From contig WAPO01000097.1 in assembly GCA_015520705.1 (NCBI GenBank), positions 1-44,355 on the forward strand: DNA of 44,355 nucleotides, given 5' to 3'. Source of the DNA: Thermococcus sp. (GTDB lineage: Archaea > Methanobacteriota_B > Thermococci > Thermococcales > Thermococcaceae). The translations under genes were made by a program, and so were the position numbers. The number at the start of each line of letters is the position of its first letter. Position 1 is the stretch's first letter. Under the pieces are notes generated by a model. It was not told the origin of the DNA, did no database searches, and was given only the letters and a program-made list of their open reading frames with translations. Of the stretch, positions 1-4,409 are shown one piece after another.

Positions 1-1
1 C

Positions 2-1171
2 TTCATTAGAGAGAGTGTTTCAGACTTGTTCCAACAAACACCTTATGAAATTGGGCTATACTATAAGTACAAGAAAGCAGGTGTCCTGCCAAAGCCTAAC
101 ATCACCATTACCCTTCCATATGCCTTGCTTCTCTTTGAGTATGCTCAAAGGAAAAAAGCAAAAGTTATCAACACTGATGCCTCTTTCAACGAGGCTGTGT
201 GGGAAATGTTAAAAGAGAGGAGTAAGACAGACCCGGTGTTCTCCTTGGATCTCCCAAACCCAAAGATTATAGAGATTCCTATCCAGAAAAAGAGTGATAG
301 TATGGTTGTAAGAGTTGTTCCAAAAACAGTACCTTATGCCAAATACACCAGACAGACACTGAGAAATGAGCATTTTCCTACACTCCAAGTCATTGCATGG
401 AAAATTGCCAAGATTGTGGAGAAGTACTATCCTCAGTTTGTGATAGATAACCGAAGAATTGTGCCGATAATCACCTACAAACAGTTTGAAGACTCCCTCA
501 GATACTTTGTGCAGAAAGAACTGAGCAAACTCAAAATCTATGACCTTACAGTTAGAACAATGCACTTTGGCTCTAGTTTGAGGAGTAGCAGGGACTTTGA
601 AGGTCTGAAGTTTCTCTTCATTGTCGGCACATTCACTGTTGGGCCTGACGCTTTCCAAGAAATCCTCCTCTCATACTTCTTGATTGACCCGGATGATATT
701 GGTCTGAAGAGCTATCAGGACAAAAACACACGGTGGAGGTATGAGAGCAGTGTTTATCCCCAGATTGATGAAATCAGAAAGTACTGGGAAGAAGAAACAC
801 AACTTCAAGCAATTTTCAGAATTCGCCCGCTTAATGAAGAGACAGTAACCTTCCTTTTTGGTCTTCTCCCAGAGAGACTTGAATCGACAATTACAGTTAT
901 TCAGTTGGATGATGTAAAAAAGGTTAAGTGGTATCCTAAGACACCTGCAACACTTCAGTTAGCAGTTAAGAAAGCTAAGGAATTCATCCAGAACTATGGA
1001 GATGACTTTGTACCTTTCTCTGAGGTCATGAGTTATCTGAAATCTCTTGGATTTGCTCATATGGTTGCACATAGAGCAGTACAAGAACTGACTCACCAAT
1101 TCACTGTTTACACCAAGAAAGAAGGCAAACGAGGAAGACCAAAGAAGTATTTCCTCTATGTTCATAGCTAA
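2..1171 (+). CDS. Mobile-element protein, 5'-truncated by the window edge, with a C-terminal winged-helix-like region and GRPKK (AT-hook-like) tail
   Basis: The ORF track starts at TTG 26, but the frame stays open to the left edge (..FIRESVSDLFQQTPYEIG). The C-terminus FVPFSEVMSYLKSLGFAHMVAHRAVQEL..KKEGKRGRPKKYFLY looks like a DNA-binding domain. Confidence 0.6.
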   Translation, partial: FIRESVSDLFQQTPYEIGLYYKYKKAGVLPKPNITITLPYALLLFEYAQRKKAKVINTDASFNEAVWEMLKERSKTDPVFSLDLPNPKIIEIPIQKKSDSMVVRVVPKTVPYAKYTRQTLRNEHFPTLQVIAWKIAKIVEKYYPQFVIDNRRIVPIITYKQFEDSLRYFVQKELSKLKIYDLTVRTMHFGSSLRSSRDFEGLKFLFIVGTFTVGPDAFQEILLSYFLIDPDDIGLKSYQDKNTRWRYESSVYPQIDEIRKYWEEETQLQAIFRIRPLNEETVTFLFGLLPERLESTITVIQLDDVKKVKWYPKTPATLQLAVKKAKEFIQNYGDDFVPFSEVMSYLKSLGFAHMVAHRAVQELTHQFTVYTKKEGKRGRPKKYFLYVHS

Positions 1172-1522
1172 CCAGCTATAAAAAATTCTTATTCCTGTCT
1201 CCTTAATGTTTTCTAGATTTACTCTCCTTATAACCAAACTCAAAATCACAGCGTAAAATACTGATTCACATACATATTTAATATTATACGCTCCAAAATC
1301 AAACTCCTTACAGAATCCTAATTTTCCAAATCAACCGCTTCACAAGTTTGTAAGAATTTTTTATAACTGGTGCACACTGAATTTTTGCTTATCTCTCACC
1401 TCTTCTAACTGCTTCAGAATTTTACAGAAAGGTAATGTGAAAAAGGTGTTGGAAGTCTGGGAGAGGAGTTACTGCGAAACCTGTATTAGGGTGAAAGTTG
1501 TAGTATGCTCATGGCGAGTTGA

Positions 1523-2362
1523 ATGTATAGGAAGTCGGTTTATCAGGATTTGGAGAAGTTTAGAGAAAAGGTGTGGGAGAGGACAAAGAAACTCGAGACA
1601 CTACTGGAACAAGATACTGAGCAACTTCGAAAGGAAATAAATTCAACTCTTGGTTATGGTCCCGACCTATACTTCTACCAGAAAACTGTTTCCCAGACTA
1701 AACATGCCTCATCTAGAAGAATCAGAGATCTACTGCTTGATGAGGAGTTTGTTGAATTACTGTATGCAACTCTTGTGTCATGGGGAATGCATTCAAGAAG
1801 AGCCAGAATGAAGCCATTTGAGGAGTTCTCCCAGAGCATACAGGATAATGTTGATTTGTTTGCTAAGTTAGCAGACTATCATCTAAGGAAGAGGTCTAGT
1901 GACGAGAATGGTTTGGATGAAGGTGTGAAAGACATTTTGGACTTATTTATTGCCTTAGACATTATGAAACCCATGAAGAAAGAGATGAAGGAGGTCAAAT
2001 CCAAGAAAGTGGCTTCTAAACTTGTGGCAAACTCCAAGTTGATGCATTTTATCCTTCCTCACTTGGTCATGCCGATTGATAGAAAGCATATCGTCTCCTT
2101 TTTCACGGGATGCAGAAGAGTTCCACTCCTAGAGCCAGAGAAACTGGATAGATGGAGCGAACTTGACAGCGACACTAAGAGCGAAGTAAGGACGTTCTTC
2201 AAGATTCACAAGGCTGTGTCAGATTGGCTGAAAGACAAGAAGATTTCAAATAAGTTGAGTGAGTTGCTCGACGACAAGTGGAACCAAACAATTCCCAAAG
2301 TCATTGACAACCTGATAATCTACTGTAAGACGCATCCTGAGAAGTGCAACCGCAAGAGGTGA
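1523..2362 (+). CDS. Hypothetical protein of the integrated element (279 aa)
   Basis: Long ORF starting at ATG 1523, with an in-frame TGA directly upstream. Contains NSKLMHFILPHLVMPIDRKHIVSFF. No confident family. Confidence 0.65.
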   Translation: MYRKSVYQDLEKFREKVWERTKKLETLLEQDTEQLRKEINSTLGYGPDLYFYQKTVSQTKHASSRRIRDLLLDEEFVELLYATLVSWGMHSRRARMKPFEEFSQSIQDNVDLFAKLADYHLRKRSSDENGLDEGVKDILDLFIALDIMKPMKKEMKEVKSKKVASKLVANSKLMHFILPHLVMPIDRKHIVSFFTGCRRVPLLEPEKLDRWSELDSDTKSEVRTFFKIHKAVSDWLKDKKISNKLSELLDDKWNQTIPKVIDNLIIYCKTHPEKCNRKR

Positions 2363-2535
2363 GCTATATTCCTATGTTCCTATATCTCCTTATGGCTTGT
2401 TCTAGTTGATGCTTTCTTTTCCCAGTTTTCCCACATCTTCTCCTATTTTCGCTCTACCGGTTGTTCCCATACTCTCCCCGTCCAAAAAGTAGTTGTAGAA
2501 GTTCCAATTAACAATTACACAGGGAGGGAGGTGAT

Positions 2536-3456
2536 ATGAAGGTGAAGAAGATTGGTCTTTCTTTACATTCCGGAAAACAAATACTAGCGATGAATGGTGC
2601 AGAACTTCTTGAAAAATTCCTCAGCAGAAATCCAGGATACGGTGGGAGAGTGGGAATGATTACAGGAGAACAGGGAAGTGGGAAGACGTCACTGATGCTG
2701 CACTTTGCCAGAAAGCTCGCTGGCAAAGAGTATGTGATTTGGCGTGGGAGATTTCTAGTACAGTGGCATAAACTCCCAGACTGGGAGAAGAAAGTCAGGA
2801 TTCTGACTTACAAAGACGACAACATAGAATTCCTTAAACTTCCCTATGGCGGGGGAGGAGCGGAAGTACTAGACATTCCGGTTGTTAGGTACAGGGATGC
2901 GAAGGATGTACTGAACAAATTGGACAAAAACTACATTAATGTGATTTACGAACCACCTGGCTACAGGATTTCTGAAGAACTGGTGGAAGGTGTGAAGGAG
3001 AGAACAGGATATACCATTTCACCTGAGAAGCTAGAGGAGGAGAAACCTCACTTTTTCTGGTTTGAACTCCTCTATCGCCTCCTCACTAGGGAGGATAGGG
3101 ACTGGTATTCTGTCTTCATAGATGAGGTTGATGACATCTTTCCGGAAACTCCTACAGGTGCCCAATTCGCTCTCCAAGCATGGGTGAAAGACATCCTGAA
3201 GGACCTGAGGAAAGCACTAGTGTCCCTCATTGCTTCTACACATACAATCCGTAATGTTGATTGGAGAATAAGGACAAAGATTCCTACATATATCTACCTT
3301 AGGGGAGCAGAGCCAAGACCTGGCAGTAAGATAAAGTCCCAGTACCTTCTCCTCATGGACCCTGGGTATGCATACATTGAGTGGGGCCGGTATGGGGTGT
3401 TCAAGTTCGAGTATCTTCCACAGCCAAACTACGATGTACTAGTCAGGAGGCTGTAG
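2536..3456 (+). CDS. P-loop ATPase of the integrated element (HerA/packaging/Zot-like class)
   Basis: Walker A GEQGSGKTS, Walker B-like SVFIDEVDDIF, sensor-like SLIASTHTIRNVDWRIR. RBS ggaggtgat upstream of ATG 2536. Confidence 0.75.
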   Translation: MKVKKIGLSLHSGKQILAMNGAELLEKFLSRNPGYGGRVGMITGEQGSGKTSLMLHFARKLAGKEYVIWRGRFLVQWHKLPDWEKKVRILTYKDDNIEFLKLPYGGGGAEVLDIPVVRYRDAKDVLNKLDKNYINVIYEPPGYRISEELVEGVKERTGYTISPEKLEEEKPHFFWFELLYRLLTREDRDWYSVFIDEVDDIFPETPTGAQFALQAWVKDILKDLRKALVSLIASTHTIRNVDWRIRTKIPTYIYLRGAEPRPGSKIKSQYLLLMDPGYAYIEWGRYGVFKFEYLPQPNYDVLVRRL

Positions 3457-3648
3457 GTACCCCAGAGAGGGTAGTTTAATAATTACTATGCCCTACGTTG
3501 TTTCCTGCCTCTCCTCTCTTTCTTGTGTGTGGTCGCCCAGTATCCTGGATGTTTATCAAGTTTTTCAGAATAGAAAGAACTTTAAGAACCAAAAGCGAAA
3601 ATAATACTGACAAGTTGTTCTGTAGAGTAGTTGAGGGAGGATATAGAA

Positions 3649-3774
3649 GTGGGCAAGAAATTATGGTTTGGAATCGGGTTTGGTATGGGATTTGGGTCTT
3701 TTGTCGTAATAGACCCAGAAACAACACTAGTTAATGCACTTTGGACAATTGTTGAGAGTGTACGTACAAACTAG
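3649..3774 (+). CDS. Tiny putative membrane protein (41 aa)
   Basis: Hand-translated GTG ORF after a gggagg RBS: MGKKLWFGIGFGMGFGSFVVIDPETTLVNALWTIVESVRTN. Not in the ORF track because it is under 60 aa. Confidence 0.45.
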   Translation: MGKKLWFGIGFGMGFGSFVVIDPETTLVNALWTIVESVRTN

Positions 3775-3777
3775 CCA

Positions 3778-4011
3778 TTGGCTGTAGTAGTGTTATCTAT
3801 CCTTTTAGTTGAGTATGAACTCCTAAAAAAATCGGAATCTGTTACTCCCTGGATTGAAGCAGCCCAGGAAGGAGGTAGTGAGTTCATAGCACTACTTCTA
3901 GGATTCTTTGCTGGAGCCTGTCTCCTAATACAACCAGTTATTACACTACTTATTCTTGTTCTTGCCCAACTATTCCTCAAGTTACTGGAAAACCTTAGCA
4001 GTCCTTGGTGA
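3778..4011 (+). CDS. Small membrane protein (77 aa)
   Basis: Two hydrophobic segments (AVVVLSILLV; FIALLLGFFAGACLLIQPVITLLILVLAQLFL). Starts 3 nt after the stop of the preceding mini-ORF. Confidence 0.5.
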   Translation: MAVVVLSILLVEYELLKKSESVTPWIEAAQEGGSEFIALLLGFFAGACLLIQPVITLLILVLAQLFLKLLENLSSPW

Positions 4012-4099
4012 TTTGGCAGTTACTTCGCTCTGTCTTTTCTTGTAGTTTGGCAAAAGTGTTTTATATCTAGATTTATACCTTACTATTACTAATGGTATT

Positions 4100-4113
4100 G
4101 AGTCTATAGACTC
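4100..4113. promoter_or_regulatory. Perfect 14-bp palindrome GAGTCTATAGACTC upstream of the RHH/int(N) ORF; candidate operator
   Basis: The sequence equals its own reverse complement. It lies between AT-rich promoter-like sequence (tttatatctagatttatac) and the GTG/ATG start at 4128/4131. The motif CTATAG is repeated at 4104 and 4113. Confidence 0.5.
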
Positions 4114-4127
4114 TATAGGAGGAATGG

Positions 4128-4409
4128 GTGATGGTTGGGTCGGAATCTGGAAGAAAAACGACAATCTGGGTGAGTGTAGAGTTGAAGGAGGAGCTTAGAA
4201 AGATTGGTCGGATGGGCGACACGTATGAGGATGTAATTTGGCGGTTGCTGGAGAATGTGGTGCGGTGGCCGGGATTTGAACCCGGGCTTGCGGCGTGGCA
4301 GGCCGCAGTCCTAGACCAGACTAGACTACCACCGCACAGACCGCCGTTAGTTATTGAGCTGGGGGTGATTTATAAGCTTTTCGCCCTGTTTCCAAGGATA
4401 GATTTATAA
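4128..4409 (+). pseudogene. N-terminal fragment (int(N)) of a putative SSV-type split integrase with an RHH-like N-terminus; runs through tRNA-Gly
   Basis: SGRKTTIWVSVELKEELRKIGRMGDTYEDVIWRLLENVV is RHH-like. It is followed by RWPGFEPGLAAWQAAVLDQTRLPPHR, the antisense translation of tRNA-Gly. It reads outward from the element into the tRNA 3' end. Confidence 0.65.
4261..4335 (-). tRNA. tRNA-Gly(GCC)
   Basis: Acceptor GCGGTGG/CCACCGC, anticodon stem GCGGC-CTGCCAC-GCCGC, T-loop GGTTCAAATCC. Confidence 0.95.

Follow-up and report, generated by a model that had tools for sequence, protein, structure and literature searches.

In Thermococcales, pT26-2, pTN3 and TPV1 carry SSV-type (type I, "suicidal") integrases in which attP lies inside the integrase gene, the att site corresponds to the 3' half of a tRNA gene, the gene is split on integration and the catalytic core belongs to PF16795. 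The SSV1 and pSSVi integrases follow the same split-gene strategy with an R..KXXR..Y tetrad, which is the SSV1 type (PMC8371274), and the N-domain of SSV1 is PF07935. A reviewed model proposes that int(N) and int(C) halves are exchanged via homologous recombination (PMC8371274). The pTN2-like plasmids and PAV1, which share a conserved wHTH regulator (PAV1 ORF153) in all their members, have no annotated integrase in the database records consulted, and Southern blots detected no integrated copies of five pTN2-like plasmids (PMC3543421). The locus described here has an ORF with a putative ribbon-helix-helix (RHH) domain at a tRNA-Gly gene, supported by the comparisons below as int(N) of an SSV-type integrase, and an ATPase in common with the pTN2-like plasmids and PAV1.

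The integration junction

The window analysed here is the entire contig C97 (44,355 bp), one of 209 contigs in a Thermococcus sp. assembly; its features are listed in Table 1. A 93-aa ORF of the ORF listing (4128–4409, plus strand) runs into the tRNA-Gly(GCC) gene from its CCA 3' end and stays open up to 4409, which confirms the first-pass annotation of an int(N)-like ORF entering an intact tRNA-Gly. That the frame stays open through the whole tRNA into the flank, as that annotation had also noted, is correct but uninformative: antisense frames over tRNAs in the window are open through the 3' half in 14 of 21 cases and through the whole tRNA in 10 of 21, about a coin toss, and we dropped this property as evidence. 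The candidate starts are GTG at 4128 and ATG at 4131.

Table 1 Features at the element end of the window (coordinates are those of the window)
Feature	Position	Strand	Basis
~606-aa protein, truncated at the contig start to its C-terminal 389 aa	2..1171	+	69% identity to residues 217–606 of the G059 606-aa protein
279-aa protein	1523..2362	+	31% identity over 273 aa to a G059 292-aa protein in the same position
P-loop ATPase, 306 aa	2536..3456	+	sequence comparison
Small hydrophobic ORFs of 47 and 77 aa, in the same frame with a TAG between them	3631..4011	+	ORF listing
Candidate RHH operator or arm-type site, 9-bp phased repeat GTATTG-agt-CTATAG-act-CTATAG	4095..4118	+	lies ahead of the int(N) start
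Likely int(N) ribosome-binding site, GGAGG	4118..4122	+	sequence
int(N) of a split SSV-type integrase, encoding a putative RHH N-terminal domain	4128..4257	+	85% identity to JdFR-02 and 76% to G059 (RHH part), third-position bias, AF2 model and Foldseek
attR (att core), running antisense over the 3' half of tRNA-Gly as far as the anticodon loop	4258..4303	+	length inferred from repeats
Intact tRNA-Gly(GCC), presumably rebuilt by integration	4258..4335	-	ARAGORN; identical to the C85 copy
Chance read-through into the tRNA 5' half and host flank, outside the integrase	4304..4409	+	tails differ between relatives; 139 bp common with C85

Genes of the element were found in only two other places, the complete chromosome G059 and Thermococcus sp. 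JdFR-02, which is assigned to a different genus within the family; an apparent further element, in G094, was dropped when it proved to be the JdFR-02 assembly (100% over 4515 bp). Gene order is conserved. The homologous RHH ORF enters tRNA-Val(TAC) in G059 and tRNA-Tyr(GTA) in JdFR-02, and both relatives are complete, at 8.2–8.5 kb: G059 has int(N), a 51-nt repeat of the tRNA-Val 3' half and int(C), with a repeat spacing of 8190 bp, and JdFR-02 has a 51-nt repeat of the tRNA-Tyr 3' half spaced 8532 bp apart on one contig. At the far end of both elements, the tRNA 3'-half copy is joined, in the same frame, to an integrase core of PF16795 type (9.6e-44 for G059 int(C)) that carries R (GIR), KXXR (KYAR) and Y (HYINLF). 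These relatives show the half that is missing from the window, and with the empty site described below they bear out the earlier reading of an SSV-type int(N) at an element boundary. The element was also correctly predicted to extend to the left, since the contig stops inside it, within the gene of the ~606-aa protein.

The att core, which would code for the integrase linker VRWPGFEPGLAAWQ, was delimited from the 51-nt repeats of G059 and JdFR-02 and the 44- and 51-nt repeats of the G030b and G033 elements, both in tRNA-Gly(GCC). Past att the ORF tails differ among relatives and host DNA reaches at least 4396; the last third of the ORF, from about residue 60 onward, is host flank read by chance. 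The linker frames are DSNPG and DLNRG in G059 and JdFR-02, unlike GFEPG in the window, which is due to one extra base, G4257. GFEPG is also the frame used in tRNA-Gly(GCC) by the RHH integrase G030b, and given this precedent the window frame can be real; it is also possible that G4257 is a post-integration frameshift. The integrases surveyed below do not all read the tRNA 3' half in one frame: GFEPG and DLNPG occur, and GIRTRD in pT26-2.

Contig C85 of the same assembly joins udp to a complete tRNA-Gly with 61 bp of its 5' flank, and is identical to the window over 139 bp, diverging exactly at 4258. The same udp, tRNA-Gly, tRNA-Arg, MTAP order occurs in G051. An att copy, with repeats of 42–55 nt, would stop near the anticodon and could not span 139 bp. 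We therefore read C85 as the empty site; the assembly bin would hold both occupied and empty sites, a circumstantial sign of integration or excision activity.

The int(C) of this copy and the second tRNA-Gly 3' half were not found in the assembly and would lie beyond the contig; nor did the assembly yield the left half of the element, with the remainder of the ~606-aa protein. The assembly has two more SSV-type int(C) fragments (C87, 3270–4061; C112, 291–1337), on the pT26-2 side of the core tree, the latter starting in a tRNA-like 3' half. We rejected both as this element's int(C), as they group with pT26-2 and G030a.

Gene content of the element

The P-loop ATPase is common to pP12-1, pTN2, pIRI48 and PAV1 (52% identity to p12-10p of pP12-1, 40–41% to pTN2 and pIRI48, 39% to PAV1 ORF375), with closer homologs in JdFR-02 (83%) and G059 (70%), and matches phrog_22963 at 1.2e-92. 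The protein had been called packaging-like; the ATPase stands, with packaging as a putative role. Unlike the records of the pTN2-like plasmids and PAV1, the element has an integrase. The ~606-aa protein is possibly a replication protein, judged from its position and from a GSGKT loop in the N-terminus of the G059 protein. As for the SF1 helicase of the pTN2-like family, the G059 606-aa protein has no UvrD match and the JdFR-02 618-aa protein matches UvrD at E 0.068, below the cut-off.

The 279-aa protein has no counterpart among the ORFs of the JdFR-02 element and no match in a defence-family search, and its single-sequence fold (pLDDT 39) was too poor for use. Family searches with the 47- and 77-aa ORFs gave no match; the pair is perhaps one membrane protein, broken by the TAG. 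Small proteins of the JdFR-02 element (L077, 5565–5801 and 9639–9839) have weak matches to LSM-type (Sm/Hfq-like) domains, and an "RNA chaperone Hfq" is annotated in pP12-1 and pIRI48 (L053, 1721–2257).

The N-terminal domain

The pre-tRNA residues of the ORF (KTTIWVSVELKEELRKIGRMGDTYEDVIWRLLEN) have an RHH pattern. Pfam matches of the window domain are weak (DUF7557, E 0.054; VAPB_antitox, E 0.096), and the G059 domain matches DUF7557 at E 0.0043. An AlphaFold model (mean pLDDT 78.6) has an extended N-terminal segment followed by two helices, and in a Foldseek search with the model several top matches were RHH domains of VapB, ParD and NikR, each individually weak. The strand of an RHH domain forms only in a dimer. 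The putative assignment to the RHH family draws on weak profile scores, a 43-residue model and the pattern. The three elements sit in different tRNA genes and have conserved RHH codons, whose differences fall mainly at third positions (11/16, 15/23 and 14/25). We infer that the domain, in the mobile form at least, is translated and under selection.

The first-pass annotation had held that an RHH-like domain at the N-terminus of a tyrosine recombinase would be notable. We scanned 20 integrase-core loci in Thermococcus genomes, up to 40 kb each, for the att repeat, and 15 had a tRNA-type repeat of 42–55 nt, giving 17 att-delimited integrases with G059 and JdFR-02. Their N-domains were RHH-like in 12, beta-rich with a shared pattern in four and unclassed in one, G011, G007b, G030b and G012a being called RHH by pattern alone. 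CcdA, an RHH family, was matched by pT26-2, G059b, G007a, G009, G030a, G027 and G031 (E 5e-5 to 0.18), above the cut-off only for G031 (24.1 bits). An RHH-like N-terminus, present in 12 of 17 surveyed integrases, in pT26-2 and, in truncated form, in TPV1, is thus a common trait of Thermococcales suicidal integrases rather than a peculiarity of the element described here. The terms RHH and ribbon-helix-helix are absent from the main text of the 2021 review (PMC8371274) and the pT26-2 family paper.

TPV1 has the same RHH frame with a stop in front of it: the integrase frame runs upstream of the annotated start into the RHH strand (L065, 870–905), and a TGA lies directly before the strand where its relative G059b has CGA. 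In G029 the repeat is inside the RHH instead of a tRNA-type repeat; there (G029:C1, ~78–118 kb; L130, L131) the integrase apparently still has its RHH attached, and 53 nt of the RHH coding region are repeated 27 kb away.

Phased repeats before the RHH start

Ahead of int(N), an exact CTATAG pair (4104–4118) is part of a longer phased repeat, and phased repeats stand at the same place in G059, with three perfect copies, and in JdFR-02. We searched the 170 bp preceding the RHH strand for three copies with a period of 9–11 and scored them against a background of 2850 windows from the same elements. The repeats reached p <= 0.0007 in G059 (CTATAG), pT26-2 and G007a (GTGGGCC), and G030a, G027 and G029 (GTGGCCAC), and p was 0.046 for the window and 0.10 for JdFR-02. 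No phased repeats were found before the RHH of G031, G011 and G007b, and none before five controls without a recognised RHH (p 0.11–0.78). Combined over eight classes, p was ~2e-7 with the favourable member of each class and 2e-5 with the worst member (controls, 0.49), values that are support and not proof because the repeats were spotted by eye before testing. Most such genes appear to have phased repeats of 9–10 bp, here CTATAG, ahead of the RHH start, which looks new.

Histories of N-domain and core

In the core tree, JdFR-02 and G059 nest with four integrases that have a beta-type N-domain (support 100/98 and 97/95), a clade that we take to be pTN3-like. A single clade of all RHH integrases was rejected (AU p 3e-10), as was joining JdFR-02 and G059 to the pT26-2 core group (AU p 0.0024), both values being somewhat optimistic because the groups were named after the first tree was seen. 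That the cores of these relatives lie in a clade whose other members have a beta-rich N-domain looks new. The simplest reading of the sequences is a replacement of the N-domain, probably by exchange at att; because att lies between the two domains, recombination there would be a likely route.

The pT26-2 integrase likewise has an RHH-like N-terminus, but the RHH here is DUF7557/VapB-like and not CcdA-like, the repeat motif is CTATAG and not GTGGGCC, and the relatives' core falls outside the pT26-2 group. An RHH also stands in place of the SSV1 N-domain. Lambda-type integrases have an arm-binding N-domain of a different fold; the likeness would lie in the putative arm binding here, the N-domain perhaps contacting repeats outside the att core.

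Discussion

Positions 1–4257 of the window are, very probably, the right-hand half of a small element in tRNA-Gly(GCC) whose integrase gene was split by integration. The gene would have contained attP, a tRNA 3'-half copy separating the RHH N-domain from the tyrosine-recombinase core. On recombining with the chromosomal tRNA it would have been split in two and tRNA-Gly rebuilt; int(N) would remain next to the restored tRNA, and int(C) would now be at the other end of the element, outside the contig. We envisage that the RHH dimerises, helps Int to assemble on DNA and binds the CTATAG repeats ahead of its own gene; Int, bound as RHH-held dimers or tetramers, would recombine attP with the tRNA and so split its own gene. 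The att segment, which is also the domain boundary, could let elements exchange N-domains.

An RHH ORF that is a stand-alone regulator or VapB-like antitoxin, ending beside the tRNA by chance, is favoured by the commonness of open antisense tRNA frames and by a chromosomal 47-aa RHH of G027 that is 51% identical to that of the window and matches DUF7557 at 5.9e-11. It is strongly disfavoured, with hardly any probability left to it: the same RHH adjoins a different tRNA 3' end in G059 than in JdFR-02, its in-frame continuation recurs at the other end of those elements fused to the PF16795 core, and no toxin gene follows the ORF. We also consider it improbable that the element is the decayed remnant of an old insertion. 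The absence of the left end and int(C) from the assembly and the in-frame TAG between the 47- and 77-aa ORFs would fit decay, but all larger genes are open and conserved, and the site is polymorphic in the population, which suggests recent or ongoing movement.

A rival that we hold somewhat doubtful yet take seriously concerns the function of the domain within a split integrase, and has the RHH serve only protein–protein assembly, with the CTATAG repeats belonging to some unrelated regulator as its operator. DNA binding is characteristic of the RHH class. Phased repeats, moreover, precede several RHH integrase subtypes with different motifs and were not found before the five controls, which speaks against a role in assembly only. 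In its favour, the N-terminal end of SSV2 Int controls multimerisation, and complete suicidal integrases integrate and excise alone in experiments (PMC8371274).

On the preferred reading of an RHH that also binds DNA, int(N) may still be made and hold down its own promoter, since the start, the ribosome-binding site and the repeats are retained. An extension of this, which we regard as unlikely, is that integration acts as a switch: the freed RHH would repress its own promoter on the repeats, stop antisense transcription into the tRNA and block the integrase of an incoming relative, and att recombination would shuffle N-domains together with their operators between element families.

These observations bear on what lets self-splitting integrases survive and on how they change in target and regulation. 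The conflicting histories of N-domain and core in one lineage are as predicted by the exchange model (PMC8371274), and N-domains of the RHH type are accompanied by a candidate DNA site. The half that remains at the tRNA, putatively DNA-binding, also points to a function for a gene remnant that would commonly be dismissed as a pseudogene.
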